From Thalassospira lucentensis (lineage in GTDB: Bacteria > Pseudomonadota > Alphaproteobacteria > Rhodospirillales > Thalassospiraceae), in NCBI RefSeq assembly GCF_011806425.1, contig NZ_JAATOV010000003.1, forward strand, positions 1 to 64,000: a stretch of DNA of 64,000 bases. Reading direction: 5' to 3'. The notes below the pieces were generated by a model. The model did no database searches. It saw only the letters and a list, made by a program, of their open reading frames with translations, and was not told the origin of the DNA. A program made the translations under genes and the position numbers. Shown here one piece after another: positions 22,396-48,230 of this stretch; position 1 is the first letter of the stretch, and the number at the start of each line of letters is the position of its first letter.

Positions 22396-23628
22396 CTAGG
22401 TGTCGGAGAGACCGTCAGCTTGCTCTCTTTTCTCCCGAATGTACCTAATTAAGGCGAGTTGTCGTTCACCCTGATGATGTAATTCGCGATAATCTATCTT
22501 CATTTTTCTAAAGGCGCGGCACTTGATGAAAAAGAGTCGCGTCCAGAACCTTAGATAGAGAAAATTATCGAGAATAATGTTATTTTCCTGTTTGTTGAAA
22601 GTTGCTCTTAAGACGGCCTTCGCAGGAAAAAGCCCCTTGAAAAGTGCGTAGCTGCGTTCTTGCATGCTAGATGAACTTGATAACAGCGAAAGTAACTTGG
22701 GGCCTGCAAACTTGCTTATGTCCGGGAATAGTCCGAGGTTGTCGAGTAGGCAGGGCATGATTGCTGACAGGTCCGCGTCGGGCTTCCAGCTCGAAAACTG
22801 CGTGGTTGTCACTCCTAGGTTTCTAGTCAGGAGATGCAGGCAAATATTTATGCTATCGGTAGCCCCCCATTCTTCTGCTCGGGCGCGGACGATATCCCAA
22901 TCTATTTTTGTATCGGAATCGGTGATTAATTCAGCTAAATCCCAAAGTTGGGTTAGGGAAACATCGAAATAGTGATGTTCCATATGCAGGCAAAGATAAA
23001 CCAGCAAGTCTTCGGACGACATAACCCGTGCATTTTTATGTTGCGCGTCGATAGCAAGAGATCGCAGCCAGATGCCGTCTAAGTCGATATCGTGTTCATC
23101 TGTCAAACGCCAATGCAGTTCGATTGGCAGGGTTGAAGCATCTGATTTAGTGAATGTCAGATTGTGATAATCATCGACGTCGAATAGGCCTTCGTCAAAG
23201 GTTGGGCTGCAGGTATACCCAATTTGAGTGAAATATTCGGCGAAAGCAGGAATATCTTTTTTTTGAGCCAGAATGTCGATGTCGCCCATAGAGCGGAGAC
23301 CAAGGTTGCTGTAAACCCGGCCGGCTAAGTCGATGCCTTTTAGGAGAATGGCTTGACGTCCCGATGAGGCAATTGCTTTGAATAGCAATTGTTTGCCTGC
23401 AAAGTTACGGGCAGCGTTCCCGAGAATATGAAGGCGAAGTTGGGAGTTGATTAGGTCCGGTGCGGATATATTGGTTTGCCGCAAGCGAAGAGCTAGAAAC
23501 TGTTGACCACCTTTTTCTTTCAGTAGGTTAAAAAGGGTGTTCCATTCATCGGGCCTCAGATTTTGCAGAACTTCTTCACCATCTTTATCCCAACGCAGAG
23601 CTGATAAGAGAGAGCTAGCAGCGGTCAT
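22396..23628 (-). CDS. Nucleotidyltransferase-family protein of the lasso cluster
   Basis: 410 residues of the NTP_transf_5 (PF14907-like) family. The core shows LLKGIDLAGRVYSNLGLRSMGDIDIL with the metal-binding Asp pair D116/D118, and the downstream LPIELHWRLTDEHD strand that supplies the third carboxylate. Homologues are known in lasso-peptide clusters that also have HPr-kinase-like kinases, such as the paeninodin type, where their role is unsettled. It may attach a nucleotide or another group to the phosphorylated peptide. Its start overlaps the B2 stop by 4 bases; it is the last gene of the operon. Confidence 0.85.
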   Translation of the reverse strand: MTAASSLLSALRWDKDGEEVLQNLRPDEWNTLFNLLKEKGGQQFLALRLRQTNISAPDLINSQLRLHILGNAARNFAGKQLLFKAIASSGRQAILLKGIDLAGRVYSNLGLRSMGDIDILAQKKDIPAFAEYFTQIGYTCSPTFDEGLFDVDDYHNLTFTKSDASTLPIELHWRLTDEHDIDLDGIWLRSLAIDAQHKNARVMSSEDLLVYLCLHMEHHYFDVSLTQLWDLAELITDSDTKIDWDIVRARAEEWGATDSINICLHLLTRNLGVTTTQFSSWKPDADLSAIMPCLLDNLGLFPDISKFAGPKLLSLLSSSSSMQERSYALFKGLFPAKAVLRATFNKQENNIILDNFLYLRFWTRLFFIKCRAFRKMKIDYRELHHQGERQLALIRYIREKREQADGLSDT

Positions 23629-24113
23629 GGGGCTTGTACTGTCGATGTAGAAGTGGCTTTTCGGTTACGATAAGCCGCTATTTGCTTGAATAGTGCGCGT
23701 TCGGAACCGCCGGTCAGTATTTCATCGTTGCATTCAAGCCAAGCATGTGCCGCTAGCGAATTCTCAGGCGCGGTAGAACGTGAGACCCCAAGGAAAAGTA
23801 AGCTAGGGATATGCCGACGTTGCAGCAAAACCGATCCGGCGAGTGCTTTTACAAGGCAAGTGCAATTCAAAGGAAGACGGCTGGCGGCAGTTGTAATAGC
23901 CCACGATATATCTTCTGTTCGAACTTCAGGAGACATATTTGTTGGGAATGTTGAGGATGCTGTTTCCAAATCAAAAAGGCGGAGGACTCTCGCAATAGGC
24001 AAACAGGTAATTGCCAAGCGCGCATACAGTAATAGTATACTGGCTTCTAGTAGCAGCAGAAACTGAGGGAAACCGGCTTTTTGGAGCTTGGAAAAATCAC
24101 CCTTTCGAAACAT
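23625..24113 (-). CDS. Lasso peptide leader peptidase (B2 protein)
   Basis: 162 residues, the length of stand-alone B2 proteins. The N-terminal region is hydrophobic; the transglutaminase-like protease core contains the catalytic triad candidates C86 (NCTCLVKALAG), H123 (LAAHAWLE) and D130. It cuts the leader peptide from the precursor after the residue following the conserved Thr. It works with the separate leader-binding B1 protein, whose gene overlaps it by 17 bases. A split B1/B2 arrangement is standard in many lasso clusters. Confidence 0.9.
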   Translation of the reverse strand: MFRKGDFSKLQKAGFPQFLLLLEASILLLYARLAITCLPIARVLRLFDLETASSTFPTNMSPEVRTEDISWAITTAASRLPLNCTCLVKALAGSVLLQRRHIPSLLFLGVSRSTAPENSLAAHAWLECNDEILTGGSERALFKQIAAYRNRKATSTSTVQAP

Positions 24114-24387
24114 CTATCAAACTCTCATCGGCGAGTTGGCCAAGGAATGCGATGACATCATTTCTGATCTCGATAGAATCACCTTCGAATGAATTTACGA
24201 TGTCGACGCAAAGTTCTTCAACTTTTCGCGGTTTTTCTATTTCTTCCCATATTTTGCGTGCAACCGGATTGAGGCCAACATAGTTGTTGGATTCATAACT
24301 GATAATTACCAGATCACCGTCAACGGCAGTGTTTGGCAAATCTTTCTTTTGAACAACAATGGAATCTTCAGAGATTTTGCTAGTCAT
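24097..24387 (-). CDS. PqqD-like leader-recognition protein (lasso B1/RRE)
   Basis: 96 residues from the ATG at 24387, which has AGAGGG upstream; a start 10 codons earlier lacks one. It is a winged-helix RiPP recognition element of the PqqD family: strands LVIISYESNNYVGLNPVARKIWEEIEKPRKVEELCVDIV (in part) and a C-terminal helix pair. It should bind the W-x-K-P segment of both precursor leaders and bring them to B2. It overlaps the B2 gene and the sulfotransferase gene, so translation is coupled. Confidence 0.88.
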   Translation of the reverse strand: MTSKISEDSIVVQKKDLPNTAVDGDLVIISYESNNYVGLNPVARKIWEEIEKPRKVEELCVDIVNSFEGDSIEIRNDVIAFLGQLADESLIDVSKG

Positions 24388-25279
24388 CTTGTCCCTCTGG
24401 CCGCTTTCCGTGTGCATCGACGTATCTGAGGCGTTGCATCATTTCGCCGTGCGTATCGATTAGCTTGTCTATAAGTTTTTGTGGCAGTTCCTCACGCCAT
24501 CCATCTACTTTTCCTTTGCGGAAAAACAGACCTGCAGCTTTTGCTGGTCTCTCCCGAAACCCCTGAGTTTGCTCTTGTGCTTGCAGTTTTTTAAAGCTGC
24601 ATAACTCTAGTGCGTGTTTTAGCCTATTCTCATCATATGCCAACCCGCAAAATGTGACCAACCGCCCAAAAGATTCCATTGGATTTTGGACCATATCTTC
24701 ATATCGCAGGTGACATAAGACAACTTCAGTTTGATCCAACCAGCTTTGGGCATGCTGACTCCAGCTTCCGATTTTTTGTTCGATGGCTGGAGATGGTCGT
24801 TTGTCTGCTGCTGAAAGGCAGTAGTCGCGAGTGCAAAGTATATCTACAGATATTTCAAGTGAGACACCCCAATGGGATGCTGCGGAGGATGCGATGTCAA
24901 GGACATTACGAGAAATGAAGACAGCCTTCTTCGTTACGTCAGGCGGAAACAATAGGTTGCCATCAGCCGTTTTCCGCCAAAGATCATGTGTTTTTACAAA
25001 CAGGTTGTCGTTGGTTTCACGCGAGAGGGCCCGCAAGATTTCTGGGCGAAAATTATCAATCGTGGCGGGATCTAGCATGGATGTTTTTATCCCAAGATAG
25101 CGATCAAAACAAACACGGGAGAAAGCAGCAGCTAGATTGGTTTCGGCGGTTTTGTTGATATCTACAGGCGACGTGCCGATGTAACTTGCGAGAAACATTC
25201 TCGTCCAAGTGTTTCCTGACTTTGGATAGGATGCCAAGGGAATGATATTACTCACCGATGATTGCTCCAAGAACGTCAT
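24380..25279 (-). CDS. PAPS-dependent sulfotransferase in the lasso cluster
   Basis: 299 residues. The PAPS 5'-phosphosulfate loop PLASYPKSGNTW (residues 14-25) and the 3'-phosphate motif FISRNVLDIASSAASHWG (Arg and Ser) are both present, as is the C-terminal region FRERPAKAAGLFFRKGKVDGWREELP typical of the cytosolic aryl-sulfotransferase type (RKGxxGDW-like). It transfers a sulfuryl group to a hydroxyl or amine. The overlaps with the kinase (32 bases) and B1 (8 bases) show it is part of the operon, so the lasso peptide or a leader intermediate is the likely acceptor. A sulfotransferase is not part of the standard lasso set. Confidence 0.88.
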   Translation of the reverse strand: MTFLEQSSVSNIIPLASYPKSGNTWTRMFLASYIGTSPVDINKTAETNLAAAFSRVCFDRYLGIKTSMLDPATIDNFRPEILRALSRETNDNLFVKTHDLWRKTADGNLLFPPDVTKKAVFISRNVLDIASSAASHWGVSLEISVDILCTRDYCLSAADKRPSPAIEQKIGSWSQHAQSWLDQTEVVLCHLRYEDMVQNPMESFGRLVTFCGLAYDENRLKHALELCSFKKLQAQEQTQGFRERPAKAAGLFFRKGKVDGWREELPQKLIDKLIDTHGEMMQRLRYVDAHGKRPEGQDD

Positions 25280-26129
25280 CCATTGACCATCTGTTTTCAG
25301 GGCGAGAAACTAAAAGCAGATCGATACTGGAAAGCGTATAGAGAAAACTGGTTTGAACCGACATGATATCTTTAGGCAGCAGAGGGCCATAAAGACATGA
25401 AAGCAACAGCTCTAATTTCTTCTGACCACTTATGCGTTCTACCTTAACCTTGCTGGTGTTTTCAGTCCGCTTTAGATAGATAATTCGAGATACAGGTTTG
25501 GACTGCTGCTGCGCGTTATGAGATATCGCCACTTTATTACGGTGCCAATCGCGACGCGGTAGGTGCGCGGTCGAATAGGGCAGATATTCTAGTGCATCTT
25601 CACAAAGGCATACTTCTTTTGTGCCCGGTAGAATCTCTAATTTCCCATTTTCACCTAGCCTTACTGCGCAAAGGTCGTCGGCCTGCAGGTGCCATCCCTT
25701 AGTTACCAGATGAGATATTGTTGTTGATTTCCCCGCACCAGAGTCACCCGTGACGATCACAGCTTGATCATTTGTGCTAGCACTTGAAGCATGGAAAGCA
25801 AGCATTTTGCGTTGCCGCAAGACAGCCGCCATAACTTGATAAAACAGGTTATGAAGAAACAAATCTTCTTTGCAGTCCTTGTTTTTTTGGAATTTTATCG
25901 AATTGCCATTTTCAACAAGAAAGCGAGCTGATTGCATTCCACCTCGCAGGAGAAATGCGCCATGATCTACATCGAACGATTGTTCAGTGACTTTTGGAGC
26001 CGGAAGATGCCGTGGTACATCCGTTTCAACTGCGATAACATCCACTTTCGCACCAGCTTGAGCACCATCTACCCCTTGGCAGGTAAAGGGTAGCGATACA
26101 ACAAGCCCATGAATTAAATAGTAGGGCAT
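25248..26129 (-). CDS. HPr kinase-like lasso peptide kinase, second copy
   Basis: 293 residues. A variable N-terminal half is followed by an HprK-type P-loop core: AFHASSAS, Walker A GDSGAGKST (G128-S135), and QADDLCAV with Asp151/Asp152. Relatives in other lasso clusters (ThcK, PadeK) phosphorylate a Ser hydroxyl at the C-terminus of the precursor. The P-loop here is canonical. The ATG has AGGAG six bases upstream and overlaps the preceding kinase gene by 16 bases. Candidate acceptors are the Ser/Thr residues in the two core tails. Confidence 0.85.
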   Translation of the reverse strand: MPYYLIHGLVVSLPFTCQGVDGAQAGAKVDVIAVETDVPRHLPAPKVTEQSFDVDHGAFLLRGGMQSARFLVENGNSIKFQKNKDCKEDLFLHNLFYQVMAAVLRQRKMLAFHASSASTNDQAVIVTGDSGAGKSTTISHLVTKGWHLQADDLCAVRLGENGKLEILPGTKEVCLCEDALEYLPYSTAHLPRRDWHRNKVAISHNAQQQSKPVSRIIYLKRTENTSKVKVERISGQKKLELLLSCLYGPLLPKDIMSVQTSFLYTLSSIDLLLVSRPENRWSMDDVLGAIIGE

Positions 26130-26986
26130 TTGTGCTCCTGCAGGATTACGTCTGCGGCATTTTCAATATCGCTTAGGTTACGGTGCGCCATATCAATATA
26201 TTTAAACGGTGCCGAACTTGTTGCTGCATAAGTTTGCAGCAACTGATTTGCTGTAGTGAATACACTGTTTATTGGAGCATTATACGGTGGAAGGCTGTTT
26301 TTAGAGAGCTTTGAAATACCCGTAGGACCAGATGAGAATTGGGCTTTATCTGCACGCAGGTCTATTCTTAAATGGTATATTGCTTTTATTGGCATCAATC
26401 TATCTTCGAAAGCACTCTCAGAGATGTTCCAATAGGGAATGTCATGCAAAGACTCTGAGGCTGGAGTAAGCCAACTTGGGCGTTTTTTGACAAAAATGCT
26501 TTCAATTGTATCTGGCCAAAGGCGCATTTGCGGCCATATTGGCGCGACATTAGCAATTCCATCACGATTAACAAAAATAGAAGCTGCGTCGTCACCCATT
26601 AAGCGAAGACCACGTTTCATTAAGGCCAGTGCGAGAGCCGATTTGCCGGTAACAGTTTGTCCGCAAAGTAAAATGGCACCATTAGGGCCTGCAACGGCTG
26701 CGGCGTTTAGACTGAATCCCCCGCGAAGGAGCGTGATCGCGACAAGTGGTAAAGAACGCAGGAACGGGCCAATGTTATCCCATTTTTTGGCGGCGCTATC
26801 GCTTATGATTAGGTCACTTTTGCTGGCGAGGACACGACCGAACTGAGGAATATCTACAAGTAGCTGATCGCGGGTCGCTTGCCACAAAATGCCACGGTCA
26901 ACAGGATTTATAAGGTCCTCAACCGTCGGCATGGTATTAATTCTGACGTCATCTAACCAATCAGGAAGTATCTTTGGTGCATTCAT
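26114..26986 (-). CDS. HPr kinase-like lasso peptide kinase, first copy
   Basis: 290 residues, HprK-like but clearly different from the next gene. The core shows SLNAAAVAGPNGAILLCGQTVTGKSALAL, whose P-loop (G109-S116) still fits GxxxxGKS but is unusual in lacking the Ser-Gly pair, and GDDAASIFV with Asp132/Asp133. It starts one base after the cyclase stop codon. It may act on the other precursor, at a different step, or as a partner subunit of the second kinase. Confidence 0.8.
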   Translation of the reverse strand: MNAPKILPDWLDDVRINTMPTVEDLINPVDRGILWQATRDQLLVDIPQFGRVLASKSDLIISDSAAKKWDNIGPFLRSLPLVAITLLRGGFSLNAAAVAGPNGAILLCGQTVTGKSALALALMKRGLRLMGDDAASIFVNRDGIANVAPIWPQMRLWPDTIESIFVKKRPSWLTPASESLHDIPYWNISESAFEDRLMPIKAIYHLRIDLRADKAQFSSGPTGISKLSKNSLPPYNAPINSVFTTANQLLQTYAATSSAPFKYIDMAHRNLSDIENAADVILQEHKCPTI

Positions 26987-26987
26987 T

Positions 26988-28844
26988 TCATTGTCCGCTT
27001 TGGGTCAGACGCTTAATGTAAAGTCCTGCCATGATCCCACGCATGAGAACTGTTGTCGCAAGATTGAATATATCCTGATTGTTTTCTGTTTTAGCTCTTT
27101 CCCAAACATTTCGCATGCGTGGCAGGTTCAAATACGGTTCCGCAACATCTTGAATTTCTACCAGAGCGGCTTCAACATCTTCGTGATAGATGCGAAGGCG
27201 TGTCAGTAGATCAGACGCCTGACGACCACGCAATTGGTTCAATCGGATCGGGTCGGGCAAAATGCCTTTCATCGCTTCTCGTATCAGCCATCGGTCGTAA
27301 CCACTTTTCGGATCGAAGAAAATATGGTCCGGTACCGATAGGCAAAATTCAAGGACCCTGGGATCCGTTGTCGGGTCGGATATCGTTATGCCCAAAAATC
27401 GACCAAGTGCATGATAATAAGCGCCTAGCCCCGGATTGGTCGGCTTCAAAATAGCAAGTCGGGCCTCACGGGCGGAGCGATTGTACCTGAGCGCGGGATC
27501 GTTGATCCGTTCTGCATGTAGGTTCAGCCGTTCGGCCAACGCCGGGGAAATAGCCGAACGTGACCAATCTTGCTTTGTGTACAGATGCCGGATTGAGCTT
27601 ACTATCTTTGATGGAAGGGCTTTTTTCAGGCGTTTGTTTACCCATGTGGCAAGACCTAAAGAGCTGATCTGATTGGCCAGCGGTCTTGAAAACTCATCGC
27701 CTGTCCAAGAAATTCCAGCATTTCCCATCTGGCCTGTTAACACCAGTTTATTACCATTTGCGGCAGCTGCGCGAAATAGATCAAGAATCCAGAATGCATT
27801 TGACGACCCGTGAATAGGGTCGCCTGCTATATCAAGGGAATCGCGAATTGCTTGAATAGGGCTGTAGTTTGAGCAAGTAATTTGATGATGCGATATATTA
27901 CCTGCACCTTGAACCAGAGCTTGTGCAAACTCTAACTCATTGCCAAATCGACCGGCTGCAAATAACTGTGTGTCCGGCAGTGGAACGGAGGTATAGGCAT
28001 CGATACTTTTGCCTTGGACGCGCAAAAAACGCGCGGATACCGCAGTTACAGAACCGGAATCAAGGCCTCCACTGAGCATCGATCCGAGTGCGTCGGTCGT
28101 AGATGCGCGTTCCGAAACCACCTTTACAAAGATATCTCGGAAGCCATCGGCGTATTCGTTTCTGTTTTTTAAAGTTTGAAGCTTTGTGTCTTTTAATGAC
28201 CAATATTGATGCAGACTGGAATAGCCGGGTTTTGCTGATAAATAATAGCCCGGCTTAAGACGGCTAGCTGATCTGTCATATAAAAACTCAGAAGGGGTGG
28301 TAATTGGCCAAGAAATAAGGTGTTGGGCAAAAGTCTTTTCATCAATATTGGGTCTAGGAGCGCCAAATTGATAAAGGAATTCTCTAGATGTTGAGAATGT
28401 TAGGAAAGTGTCTGTTTGATAATAATATAAGGTCGAATTGCCAAAATGATCACGGCTTATGATGAGGCTTTGCTGATTGCGATCCCACAACACAGCGCAC
28501 CAATCACCATGAAGAAACTTGCAAAAATCATTTCCCCAATGCCTATACGCGTGATGAACAATTTCTGCGTCGTTCATAGGTGCGTTTGGCGACAGCCTTA
28601 GGTTAAGACGTTCTATGAGTTCGTTACGGTTGTATATGATGCCGTCGACAGCAATGACCAAGCCGTTGCAGATAGATATTTGATCTGTTTCGTGATTGCC
28701 AAAACATAAAAGAAGATTAGTGTCGCGGAAAAAAACTGGGTGCTGATGATTAACAACACTAGGAATATCCGAGACCACTCCTGAAAAGCGGTTGGTATTG
28801 TACTTATCTGTGAACAGGACGCCGGACAGATATTTCTTTTTCAA
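26988..28844 (-). CDS. Lasso peptide macrolactam synthetase (asparagine synthetase-like C protein)
   Basis: 618 residues. The N-terminal half is a glutaminase-like domain without the catalytic N-terminal Cys (DGIIYNRNELIERL, GDWCAVLWDRNQQSLIISRDHFG), as in lasso cyclases. The C-terminal half has the ATP-pyrophosphatase loop SGGLDS (residues 258-263). It adenylates the ring Asp of the core and closes it onto the new N-terminus. Start: no in-frame ATG exists near the N-terminus; TTG at 28844 preceded by CAGGT is the best choice. It lies 208 bases after the second precursor gene. Confidence 0.92.
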   Translation of the reverse strand: MKKKYLSGVLFTDKYNTNRFSGVVSDIPSVVNHQHPVFFRDTNLLLCFGNHETDQISICNGLVIAVDGIIYNRNELIERLNLRLSPNAPMNDAEIVHHAYRHWGNDFCKFLHGDWCAVLWDRNQQSLIISRDHFGNSTLYYYQTDTFLTFSTSREFLYQFGAPRPNIDEKTFAQHLISWPITTPSEFLYDRSASRLKPGYYLSAKPGYSSLHQYWSLKDTKLQTLKNRNEYADGFRDIFVKVVSERASTTDALGSMLSGGLDSGSVTAVSARFLRVQGKSIDAYTSVPLPDTQLFAAGRFGNELEFAQALVQGAGNISHHQITCSNYSPIQAIRDSLDIAGDPIHGSSNAFWILDLFRAAAANGNKLVLTGQMGNAGISWTGDEFSRPLANQISSLGLATWVNKRLKKALPSKIVSSIRHLYTKQDWSRSAISPALAERLNLHAERINDPALRYNRSAREARLAILKPTNPGLGAYYHALGRFLGITISDPTTDPRVLEFCLSVPDHIFFDPKSGYDRWLIREAMKGILPDPIRLNQLRGRQASDLLTRLRIYHEDVEAALVEIQDVAEPYLNLPRMRNVWERAKTENNQDIFNLATTVLMRGIMAGLYIKRLTQSGQ

Positions 28845-29052
28845 CAGATACCTGCGTAAATTTAGTTTTTAAATTATAACTTGCTGCTGAGCAGGAATAA
28901 TAAATAAAGGCACGCGTCGATCATACCAATTTTCAGGTCGTGGGGATGAACGTTTTCCTCACCATTAAATCACGGCGCTACTCGTTGTCTGGCATCATGT
29001 TTTGTAGTTTTAATAAGAATAGGCGTGAGCAACGTGAGTTTGAGGCGGGATA

Positions 29053-29211
29053 TTAGACGGTTGGTGTGCCACCATCATTCAAAGAGCCCATCGAAGCCAG
29101 CGTCTCATCCATTCGAATTTTAGTTAGTTTCGGCTTCGTCCACGCAGATTTGCTTTCAATGTTATTTTTTTCCAAATTTTTCTGCGTATCAATTTTTTTT
29201 TCGATAAGCAT
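29053..29211 (-). CDS. Lasso peptide precursor, second copy
   Basis: A 52-residue peptide not obvious from plus-strand frames. ATG at 29211, with AAGG upstream. It aligns without gaps to the neighbouring precursor from residue 23: AW-x-KP-x-(L/M)TKI-(K/R)MD-(E/Q)TL, then the core. The conserved Thr37 at position -2 predicts cleavage after Leu38, giving a 14-residue core ASMGSLNDGGTPTV with Asp8 as ring acceptor. The leader has W24-x-x-P27 in place of the usual Y-x-x-P element recognised by B1 proteins. The tail contains two Thr residues that could be modified. Confidence 0.85.
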   Translation of the reverse strand: MLIEKKIDTQKNLEKNNIESKSAWTKPKLTKIRMDETLASMGSLNDGGTPTV

Positions 29212-29376
29212 ATTCAGTTACCTTAATTGTAAATTCGACCAGTTTTATGACCTGAAACATCTTTTTTAGCGAAGGATCAAGTTGAAGTCGAATTTATTTT
29301 CGCCTTGGATGTTTTTAAATCGCAGGATTTATGCTTTTGAATTTTCAACGCAGAAACTTTTGGTTTTTAGCCCTTT

Positions 29377-29538
29377 TTAAGGGGTAGAGCCAAGTCCGCC
29401 ATCAGCCACGGACCCTACGTTCGACAAGGTCTGGTCCATTTTGATCTTCGTCATTTCGGGCTTTTCCCAAGCCATTTTGGGGGCGCTGTTTGGCTGCGTT
29501 GAATTTTTCAAAGTGGTTGGTGTGTCTCTTAAGTCCAT
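29377..29538 (-). CDS. Lasso peptide precursor, first copy
   Basis: 53 residues from the ATG at 29538, preceded by GGAG at 8 bases; an in-frame extension upstream is unlikely. The leader (38 residues) carries W24-E-K-P27, M29, Thr37-Leu38. The predicted core is SNVGSVADGGLGSTP (15 residues): ring from Ser1 to the side chain of Asp8, tail of seven residues ending Ser-Thr-Pro. It is the promoter-proximal gene of the lasso operon, as precursor genes usually are. I am sure of the gene; ring assignment follows family rules. Confidence 0.9.
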   Translation of the reverse strand: MDLRDTPTTLKNSTQPNSAPKMAWEKPEMTKIKMDQTLSNVGSVADGGLGSTP

Positions 29539-45475: not shown

Positions 45476-45578
45476 TTGTTTAACTTTAGGTTGTGTGTTG
45501 GTGGTATTTCGTGTTCTGCTAAAGTAAAGCTGCAAAGTCAAAAATTCCAAGACAATGGGAAAGTTTGAAGGCACCGTG

Positions 45579-48230
45579 ATGGTTGATAAAAAAACTAGCG
45601 ACGATCTAGCTGATGCTATTGCGGCTCTTGTTGTCGAAGTAGAACCAGATTCTCAAAAAACGATATGGGAAGAATTGAACGATTGGGGGGAGACGCTTGC
45701 AGACTGGCAACGGTTTATCATTTCCCATGCTGTAAGAGACGGTGAGCTTTCTGATGAGAGAGTAAATGAGGCGTATCGGCTTTTCCTTCGGCACAACGAG
45801 CTTGATGCTGGCGATGAGGATTTTCCTGAAATACCGACTTCAGTTACAGGTCGCAGCGGTGCTACAGCCAAGCCAGATCGATTGAGGCTTCGGGAAATGA
45901 AAGCTCTTAAAAATGTAAACGCCATTCCTGAGACCTCAGCCTTGAAGTTTGGTGATGGGCTAACAGTTATCTATGGGCATAACGGAACCGGTAAAAGTGG
46001 TTTTGCCCGAATGTTGTCGTCAGCTTGCTTCAATCGTTCGAAGCCTACAATTCTTCGCAACATTTATGATGAAGAGGCTCAAGATACTCCCGCTGAAGCT
46101 CAGTTTGTCACCGAAAACGGTCCCGAGAAATCAGAGCTTATTTTCTTTGTTGTTGGTGATGAACACCCTGATCTCCAGAGGATTAGCGTTTTCGATTCTT
46201 CGGTGGCGCGGGTTCACCTGTCGAAGGAGAGCGAACTTGGATTCCACCCCGCAGGCTTCGATGTTTTTGATGAGTTGATGCGTATTATTCGGCTTTTTGA
46301 GGATAAGCTGGAAGTCGATATTTCGGCAAAGAGTAGGGAGAATAAATTTCACCAACTATTTACGGACCAAGGTGCGATTTCGGATCTACTGGCGAAGCTG
46401 AATTATGAGAGCAATATTGAAGACCTTCGCGCTCAAGGTACGTTTGGCGAAGTCGAGCAAAGTAGGCTTGATGAAGTGCGCCGTGTGGAAACCGAGTTGA
46501 TAGCAAACTCACCGATAGAAACTTTAAAAGCTCTTGAGGCCGGTAGAACTGATATTTCCAATTCGCAGCGCAAAATGAATAAGCTTGCTGGCCAGGTGAA
46601 CAAAGAGGCCGTGAGAGAAGCGTTCAATATGATGAATGAGCATCGAATAGCGACCGCTGAAGCGATCAAGGAGGGCGCTGAAACTGTTTCGCATCCAAAG
46701 TTGACGCAAACTGGTAGTCCTGAATGGGATACTTTTGTCAATGCAAGTCGGAAGCTAGCTGAGGTAGAGCGTGAAAGTTATCCGGAGCAAGCCGATCCGT
46801 GTCTTTTGTGCCATCGTCCATTGGATGAGCCTTCAGCTAAGCTCATAAATCGTATGTGGGGATATTTGGACGCAGGAGCCCGCAAGCGGGCCCTTGCGGT
46901 TGATGAGAAAATTAGTTCACATGTTGAAAAACTGCAGGAATTGGAACTTGATATCCTTCCTGCGGGCAGCCGCGTCCGTGCGGATTTGGGTAAAATTAAT
47001 CCTGAACTCGTTAAAGTATTTGACGGAGTTTCGGCTATTTTTTCCCAGCGCAGAAATGCGTTAGTTGATGCTCTTAATACAGGTCAGTTGGAACGAATTC
47101 CAAACAATGACATTATTTTGCCAACGGCTGAATTGACCAAAGCAATTTTAGAAATTGAGGCTCAGGAACAGAAGCTCAAAGATGGCAAATTCAAGGAAGT
47201 GCTTGCTAAGCTTAAAGCTGAGCATACTTTACTTAGACAGCGTCAAATTCTCGCCCAGAATATTGAAGATGTCGTCACTTTTGTTGAAGAACTTCGCTGG
47301 ATTCAAAAGGCAATAGCAGCGAAGCCAAATACGCGCTTTGTGACCCATAGGCAGCGCAAGTTGTTTAAAACTCTCATTGAAGGGGCTTATAAAGAGCGGT
47401 TAGCAGAAGAGTGTACTAAGTTGAATTGTGCGCTTCCGATTGAATTTCAAGCACGTGGAAGTGAAGGAAAAACACTCCGAGGGCTAAAGGTGCGAGGAGG
47501 ACATAAACCTGAAGAGATTTTCAGCGAAGGTGAGCAGCGTGCTTTGGCGCTTGCTGATTTCCTAACTGAAGTTAATCTCAACCCGTCGAGCGCCGCTATA
47601 GTTCTAGATGACCCCGTGACATCGCTTGATCACAAGCGTAAGAAGCAGATAGCTCTGCGTCTTGTTGATGAAGCTCTTGTCCGACAAGTTATCGTGTTTT
47701 CCCATGACATCGTTTTTGTAACTTCGCTGACCAATTTGGCCAAAAAAAAGAATAACTGCTCGCTAGATGTGCATTGGATTGAGAGAGATTACGAGGATAC
47801 TCCGGGAGTAGTAAAGCTCAACGATTCACCGTTAAGCCATAAAGCATATTTGTCTGCGCATCTCGCTAAGGAATACCTTGCTAAAGCTCTAAAAGCACAT
47901 GGTCGTGAACGGGTTGAACTGGTTGAAAAAGGTGCTGATGCCCTTCGCCGAACAATCGAAGAGACGATCATTCACGAGCTGTTTAATGGTACTGTTGTGC
48001 GTTGGGAAGAACATGTTCGTGTAAGCAATCTGCGGCAGGTATACTGGACGGATGAAGCCGCAGACGAATTGCGGAAATTACATGGTGAAGCTTCCGAGTT
48101 GATAGGTGCTCACTCACACTCCGATGAATTTACCGGAGGAACTCCCGACCCTGACAACCTCAGAGAGCTGATCGACAGTGTTGAAGCTGTAAAGCAATCT
48201 ATCAAGGAAGGGAAAAGTGCCAAGAAGTAA
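45579..48230 (+). CDS. AAA_13-type ATPase with zinc hook, RloC/PrrC-like
   Basis: 883 residues from the ATG at 45579 (AAGG seven bases upstream; an ATG 8 codons earlier is possible). An ABC-like ATPase split by a long coiled coil: Walker A GHNGTGKS at 133-140, the CxxC hook C408-L-L-C411 inside the coiled region, signature S649-E-G-E-Q and Walker B VLDDP at 675-679. This is the layout of RloC, a translation-disabling anticodon nuclease that monitors DNA damage. The C-terminal ~100 residues hold R790-x3-E794 and H845/H847, which loosely fit the Arg-Glu-His set of such nucleases. It could also be a plain defence ATPase of the same family. Confidence 0.8.
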   Translation: MVDKKTSDDLADAIAALVVEVEPDSQKTIWEELNDWGETLADWQRFIISHAVRDGELSDERVNEAYRLFLRHNELDAGDEDFPEIPTSVTGRSGATAKPDRLRLREMKALKNVNAIPETSALKFGDGLTVIYGHNGTGKSGFARMLSSACFNRSKPTILRNIYDEEAQDTPAEAQFVTENGPEKSELIFFVVGDEHPDLQRISVFDSSVARVHLSKESELGFHPAGFDVFDELMRIIRLFEDKLEVDISAKSRENKFHQLFTDQGAISDLLAKLNYESNIEDLRAQGTFGEVEQSRLDEVRRVETELIANSPIETLKALEAGRTDISNSQRKMNKLAGQVNKEAVREAFNMMNEHRIATAEAIKEGAETVSHPKLTQTGSPEWDTFVNASRKLAEVERESYPEQADPCLLCHRPLDEPSAKLINRMWGYLDAGARKRALAVDEKISSHVEKLQELELDILPAGSRVRADLGKINPELVKVFDGVSAIFSQRRNALVDALNTGQLERIPNNDIILPTAELTKAILEIEAQEQKLKDGKFKEVLAKLKAEHTLLRQRQILAQNIEDVVTFVEELRWIQKAIAAKPNTRFVTHRQRKLFKTLIEGAYKERLAEECTKLNCALPIEFQARGSEGKTLRGLKVRGGHKPEEIFSEGEQRALALADFLTEVNLNPSSAAIVLDDPVTSLDHKRKKQIALRLVDEALVRQVIVFSHDIVFVTSLTNLAKKKNNCSLDVHWIERDYEDTPGVVKLNDSPLSHKAYLSAHLAKEYLAKALKAHGRERVELVEKGADALRRTIEETIIHELFNGTVVRWEEHVRVSNLRQVYWTDEAADELRKLHGEASELIGAHSHSDEFTGGTPDPDNLRELIDSVEAVKQSIKEGKSAKK

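Follow-up and report, generated by a model that had tools for sequence, protein, structure and literature searches.

We analysed a 64,000-nucleotide stretch of DNA from Thalassospira lucentensis (contig NZ_JAATOV010000003.1, positions 1 to 64,000; hereafter the window), which carries at positions 22,396 to 29,538 a putative lasso-peptide operon with two HprK-like kinase genes and a sulfotransferase (ST) gene among its biosynthetic genes. The operon consists of nine minus-strand genes, all with open reading frames (ORFs), in the order A1, A2, C, K1, K2, ST, B1, B2, NT:

29377..29538, minus strand: precursor A1, 53 aa; leader ending in ...WEKPEMTKIKMDQTL, predicted core SNVGSVADGGLGSTP, predicted ring Ser1-Asp8
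29053..29211, minus strand: precursor A2, 52 aa; leader ending in ...WTKPKLTKIRMDETL, predicted core ASMGSLNDGGTPTV, predicted ring Ala1-Asp8
26988..28844, minus strand: C, asparagine-synthetase-type macrolactam cyclase, 618 aa, TTG start
26114..26986, minus strand: K1, HprK-like, candidate pseudokinase; Asn94 replaces the conserved His, P-loop GQTVTGKS, Asp132-Asp133 retained
25248..26129, minus strand: K2, HprK-like kinase; His113, Lys134, Asp151, Asp152
24380..25255, minus strand: ST, sulfotransferase of the 3'-phosphoadenosine-5'-phosphosulfate (PAPS) type; GTG start at 25255 favoured, ORF open from an ATG at 25279
24097..24387, minus strand: B1, PqqD-type recognition element (RRE) of ribosomally synthesized and post-translationally modified peptides (RiPPs); likely start 24387
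23625..24113, minus strand: B2, lasso leader peptidase; Cys86 and His123 invariant in five aligned B2 proteins
22396..23628, minus strand: NT, nucleotidyltransferase-fold protein (PF14907)

From C to NT the genes form one unit, in which C and K1 are separated by one base and the five other junctions overlap by 4-17 bases, figures that assume the preferred starts of ST (the GTG at 25255, aligned to relatives) and B1 (24387). Gene families were assigned by Pfam and NCBIfam, with matches of NT to PF14907 (3e-42), B2 to PF13471 (2e-20), B1, searched minus its first two residues, to PqqD PF05402 (7e-16), ST to PF00685 (1e-22) and the cyclase to PF00733 (1e-23). B2 scored 79.9 bits with the NCBIfam lasso B2 model NF033537 (cut-off 33), and the cyclase 217 bits with the lasso cyclase model NF033535, whose cut-off is 525 and whose type is "exception". 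The gene set of a lasso cluster, that is, RRE, peptidase, cyclase and precursor, is present. The original prediction, made from the sequence alone, of nine mostly overlapping minus-strand genes for a lasso-type, paeninodin-like biosynthesis was thus borne out by the open frames, the five overlapping junctions, the family matches, the B2 score above the lasso cut-off and the register of the precursors.

Both precursors share WxKPxxTKIxMDxTL, a 15-residue leader stretch that starts at the Trp and is followed by the predicted cores, and from the Trp onward 15 of 25 residues are identical. Thr at position -2 and Asp at core position 8, within the expected acidic range of core positions 7-9, are found in A1 and A2. 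The leaders were scored as agreeing with (Y/W)xxPx(L/V/I/F/A) plus Thr(-2), with WTKPKL in A2 and a deviation in A1, whose motif WEKPEM has Met at the last place. A GGAG precedes the ATG of A1. Within the window, A1 and A2 are the two places where an ORF shows the register W..P.L(7)T.(7)[D/E] close to its end, and in 40 Markov-1 simulated windows it was found on average 0.075 times, with a maximum of one. As judged from these positions, leader, Thr(-2) and Asp8 make both precursors lasso-type, with a predicted 8-residue ring. WxxP is described as near-invariant among the paeninodin-like leaders of Bacillota (PMC13381572).

An alignment of four cyclases, used as a profile to scan genome contigs, gave 60 loci, which were annotated with the proteins of the window and of Paramagnetospirillum caucaseum. 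A comparison of the neighbourhoods of the closest cyclases, proposed together with the original prediction, found the order C-K1-K2-ST-B1-B2 in two genomes, P. caucaseum (locus L011) and Desulfuromonadaceae GWC2_58_13 (L010), the latter on a contig that stops around 1.1 kb past B2. The three cyclases group across phyla in one clade with support 100/99, in a tree built from 24 cyclase sequences, of which two are asparagine-synthetase-like proteins that the own genome encodes. Searches with the cyclase gave matches in 2 of 297 genomes at order level (E 1e-60; the own genome and P. caucaseum), 3 of 385 at class level (1e-50, own genome counted), 3 of 55 in the family of P. caucaseum (1e-45) and 4 of 398 at phylum level (1e-40, own genome counted). 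The plasmid search with C gave one Paenibacillus cluster, and no ST was found in that cluster. A single origin of ST along the cyclase tree was discarded, as three changes are needed and two Caulobacteraceae cyclases that fall among the ST-bearing ones lack a nearby ST.

Kinase and ST genes were also found together outside this clade. At E 1e-40, a profile built from nine STs hit 90 of the 385 alphaproteobacterial genomes searched, and an HprK-like kinase adjoins ST in 13 of 30 loci examined, the window included, the other 17 being judged without one within the ~1.5 kb covered on each side. Ten of the 13 loci were enlarged and combined with those found earlier, which gave 20 different clusters that contain kinase and ST (L089 and L094 being one cluster), 18 of them alphaproteobacterial, one from Desulfuromonadaceae and one from a proteobacterial bin (L014). 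C was seen in 19, the exception being L136. Not counted among the 20 is a Tistrella plasmid locus with kinase, ST and an annotated nucleotidyltransferase gene, in which no cyclase was found within 8 kb. Two kinases are present in six clusters: the window, L010, L011, L131, the congener G154 and the Thalassobaculum sp. OXR-137 plasmid (L096:4785-8855; typed MOBQ, mobilizable). L131 has two kinase-ST pairs, and the remaining five have one ST of this kind. The claim that sulfotransferase and second kinase make a new combination stood in part: kinase plus ST occurs in 20 clusters, both genes are in print and the tandem order recurs in two other genomes, so that uniqueness was rejected, whereas the unusual kinase pair was retained.

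Within the genus, a similar ST was found in 2 of 29 genomes, the own one and G154 (34%). The G154 cluster (L089:1-14496, L094:9418-10269) has two kinases, ST, NT, an ABC transporter, a tryptophan-halogenase homologue and two 2OG-Fe(II)-oxygenase homologues, together with a second, weak sulfotransferase-like protein (26.3 bits, Pfam cut-off 27), and the sole precursor found there has no Trp.

The Hpr_kinase_C scores of K2 (26.8 bits) and K1 (24.7 bits) are both under the Pfam cut-off of 33.3 and a sequence search of the PDB gave only weak kinase matches, and for these reasons the structures of both were modelled. The AlphaFold models, with predicted local distance difference test (pLDDT) values of 89 for K2 and 85 for K1, each match PEPCK and HprK entries of the PDB, and according to its model K1 retains the HprK/PEPCK fold. 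The annotation of two HprK-like kinases therefore holds at the level of the modelled fold, but K1 lacks the conserved His. This His, placed before the P-loop, is present in 38 of 40 aligned kinases (kinase ORFs of at least 330 aa and one of each duplicate locus excluded), the exceptions being K1 of the window and of P. caucaseum, both with Asn. In a 17-kinase alignment from which these two were omitted by choice, His113 of K2 is the sole invariant His, together with Lys134, Asp151 and Asp152. K2 has the complete His-Lys-Asp-Asp set, and K1 does not. All four residues are reported as essential in a review (PMC9266682), and His113 would correspond to the essential His described there.

Six of the 26 kinases in the 20 clusters are without the conserved His, which is replaced by Asn in K1 of the window and of P. 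caucaseum, by Arg in the second kinase of G154, by Gln in the second kinase of L096 and in L130, and by Ser in L136; in the G154, L096 and L136 copies the second Asp is missing too. Of the five clusters that pair two kinases with a single ST of this kind, four have one kinase that has lost its His. That the second kinase is always broken was rejected, as both kinases retain the His in L010 and L131, the Desulfuromonadaceae K1 keeping all of His-Lys-Asp-Asp, which also disfavours a general need for a broken partner.

The precursors differ from the paeninodin type at the usual kinase site, a C-terminal Ser, since A1 ends in Pro and A2 in Val. We surveyed this position with a fixed rule that demanded a leader motif, a start codon and an acidic residue at core 7-10 and barred large overlaps with annotated genes. 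It gave 24 precursor candidates in 18 of the 20 clusters, an acidic residue being required by the rule itself, and left L010 (N run), L089 (whose precursor sits in L094) and L137 without a candidate. A terminal Ser was found in 19 of 21 candidates outside the clade of the window and in none of three inside it (Pro, Val, Asp), in such a way that the usual kinase site is absent exactly where tandem kinases follow the cyclase. The Fisher p value of 0.005 counts related precursors as independent, and one clade underlies it. The two non-Ser exceptions (L096, L135) resemble antisense or overlapping frames and were counted as non-Ser, and a real-looking L096 precursor without acidic residue falls outside the 24. 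As a general rule, the association of two kinases with Ser loss fails in G154 and in the Thalassobaculum plasmid cluster, which have two kinases and a Ser-ending precursor; from the sequences compared, it is a trait of the window clade only. The tails of other clusters are in some cases of 5 residues (PTSSS, GGVSS) and in others carry bulky Phe, Tyr, Arg or Lys. Leader position -2 is Ala instead of Thr in the L013, L015, L018 and L071 precursors.

Tandem tail-collar genes adjoin 9 of the 20 kinase-ST clusters, with three ORFs in eight of them and two in L018:

L071:10308-12011, tail-collar genes
L013:6660-8331, tail-collar genes
L014:6889-8557, tail-collar genes
L015:4240-5947, tail-collar genes
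L018:6000-8356, tail-collar genes
L132:4817-6536, tail-collar genes
L134:15054-16725, tail-collar genes
L135:5516-7337, tail-collar genes
L137:4954-6711, tail-collar genes

The three proteins checked belong to PF07484. None of these genes was found in the 54 ST-less loci of the cyclase scan, many of which are short, and the literature search gave no paper pairing tail collar with a lasso peptide. The tail-collar genes of the own genome lie on another contig, amid genes resembling phage tail genes.

ST carries the cofactor-binding and catalytic His motifs of PF00685 sulfotransferases, and S-x-PKSGNTW, K-x-H-D and the R124...S132 positions are invariant across nine aligned STs, the window included. 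The two PAPS-binding motifs are those named 5'-phosphosulfate-binding (5'-PSB) and 3'-phosphate-binding (3'-PB). An APS (adenosine 5'-phosphosulfate) kinase domain, for PAPS supply, is encoded in the own genome. Neither core contains Tyr, which makes a Ser/Thr hydroxyl or an attached sugar the likely sulfate acceptor, and in the stretches examined NT was seen in 8 of the 20 clusters, so ST may be independent of NT. No peptidase other than B2 was found among the nine genes. As for export, the best own-genome match to the ABC exporter of P. caucaseum lies on another contig (34% identity), and four matches to it in the window span the ATPase part only.

The operon has a GC content of 45.5%, against 52.7% in the remaining window. 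The proposed import of an AT-rich region is supported by this low GC and by the patchy distribution, but a clean empty site was not found, the left and right neighbours being non-adjacent in the congener whose left gene is closest. Scans for promoters and terminators yielded little beyond what shuffled sequences gave, with counts of 11 (shuffled mean 11.6) and 11 (shuffled 8.3), respectively. Another long AT-rich ORF of the window lies at 45555-48230 (GC 0.46). Gene content, precursor register, motif states, clade and distribution were observed directly.

With a probability of around 60%, we propose that the operon makes two small lasso-type RiPPs tailored by kinase, ST and NT. Overall it reads as a divergent form of the paeninodin-type lasso cluster that has an unusual kinase pair and a probably shifted modification site. 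We infer each chemical step with its site, the order of the steps and the threading. B1 would bind the WxxPx(L/M) leader of A1 and A2, and K2 would phosphorylate a Ser/Thr of the leader-bearing precursor, K1 being probably an inactive or altered partner. B2 would then cleave after Thr-Leu and C would link the N-terminus thus freed (Ser1 or Ala1) with the side chain of Asp8, leaving an 8-residue ring with a tail of 7 or 6 residues. The calculated [M+H]+ values are 1299.6175 for the ring product of A1 (1379.5838 when phosphorylated, 1379.5743 when sulfated) and 1288.5838 for that of A2 (1368.5501 and 1368.5406), the two adducts differing by 9.5 mDa. With PAPS as donor, ST would sulfate a Ser/Thr hydroxyl or a sugar that NT has attached, and NT may extend the phosphate as reported for pseudomycoidin. 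Because the cores end in Pro and Val, the phosphorylation target is not the usual C-terminal Ser, and as a first guess ring Ser5 could take its place: Gly4-Ser5 is common to A1, A2 and the P. caucaseum core. As a conserved target, Ser5 had to be dropped when the Desulfuromonadaceae precursor was considered.

Several findings weigh against this proposal. No exporter gene was found in the operon, which makes its description as complete doubtful, and the next cyclase outside the clade (L012) has neither kinase nor ST in its 11 kb. The Desulfuromonadaceae precursor is interrupted by an N run, and the fitting frame, read by eye and uncertain, ends in ..ALIDGASTGSQ and does not retain Ser5. The tails of A1 (GGLGSTP, 7 residues) and A2 (GGTPTV, 6 residues) have no aromatic or basic side chain, so that both cores lack such a plug and any threading is putative. 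The P. caucaseum core AGSGSNPD (L011:8752-8823) stops at the ring-closing Asp8, which leaves a ring without tail, unless due to a draft error, and therefore cannot thread.

These last data lead to the strongest competitor, clearly less probable than the proposal but far from negligible, in which enzymes of lasso origin make branched macrolactams that never thread, their tails being too short and slim to lock. The tailless P. caucaseum core, the 5-residue tails elsewhere and the Thalassobaculum plasmid core GPSTFSSGQAAHVS, in which the usual ring cannot form because it has no Asp or Glu, fit this well. Against it, B2 and C are lasso-type, Leu11, or Thr plus Val, could lock an 8-residue ring, and some other clusters have bulky tail residues. 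Xanthomonins, moreover, reportedly have a 7-residue ring threaded by short cores. A speculative reading, which we consider improbable, is that K1 and K2 act as a pseudokinase and active kinase pair that shifts phosphorylation inward, from the C-terminal Ser to an internal hydroxyl, with phosphate, sulfate or sugar-phosphate itself serving as a stopper or threading substitute in very small macrolactam peptides that lack a bulky plug. If true, it would define a lasso-derived class where tailoring rather than side chains determines topology.

That K1 is active despite its replaced His, giving two independent phosphorylations, would agree with its retained Lys and both Asp and with the full site of the Desulfuromonadaceae K1. 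We find it unlikely, if slightly less so than the inward-shifting pair, given the reported essentiality of all four residues (PMC9266682) and the His losses in four of five two-kinase, one-ST clusters, in two of which the second Asp is also lost. Still less probable is that ST has a small molecule, of the cell surface or elsewhere, as its substrate and stands in the operon by chance, a view favoured by the 17 of 30 related ST loci without nearby kinase and by the lack of Tyr in the cores, and opposed by the 13 loci in which a kinase adjoins ST and by one gene order holding ST in three genomes and two phyla. We give least credit to a decaying or silent import. Low GC, a degenerate K1, the missing exporter and 28 congeners without a like ST beside a related member of the cyclase clade could be read in this way, whereas nine open frames, tight overlaps and two distinct precursors agreeing at constrained positions argue against it.

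Both kinds of tailoring gene have been described beside lasso genes: a 2014 survey lists HPr kinase and sulfotransferase for some of the lasso clusters found in anaerobes (PMC4289311), and Zhu 2016 is cited in a review for a sulfotransferase gene in lasso clusters of Firmicutes (PMC8498205). In the passages of both that were consulted, co-occurrence in one cluster is not stated and no tandem kinase pair is mentioned. Neither a sulfated lasso peptide nor a tandem-kinase lasso cluster was found in the open-licence literature searched, as far as its texts were accessible, and the operon consequently offers a direct test of peptide O-sulfation on Ser/Thr. In the window and P. caucaseum two reported rules for lasso kinases, the full His-Lys-Asp-Asp site and the C-terminal Ser, fail jointly, and the operon is suited to testing whether paired kinases alter the choice of site. 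The kinase-ST clusters, with tail-collar genes in 9 of 20, represent a larger group of which no description was found in the same, partly accessible literature.

Among the systems described, the linear polyphosphorylated peptides (LPP) share RRE, HprK-like kinase, NTP transferase and an internal Ser target, LppK acting on Ser3, but they have a signal-peptidase-like protease, no cyclase or B2 of their own and YxxP leaders (PMC13381572); the presence of B2 and C places the operon outside that class. BsfK of Bradymonas sediminis phosphorylates the internal Ser3 of the lasso precursor BsfA, that is, a lasso kinase acting on a non-C-terminal Ser in a peptide with an Asp8 ring. BsfA has Ser3 and Ile(-2), with no ST mentioned in the sections available (PMC10368454), whereas A1 and A2 have Thr(-2) and no Ser3. 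The paeninodin and pseudomycoidin clusters have in common with this operon C, an HprK-like kinase, B1, B2, NT, the WxxP leader and a predicted ring closure through an acidic side chain, and the nucleotidyltransferase of pseudomycoidin is reported to add hexose to the phosphate (PMC8498205). By contrast with them, the T. lucentensis operon has no C-terminal Ser and no exporter within, is alphaproteobacterial, and combines a second, degenerate kinase, an ST and two precursors.

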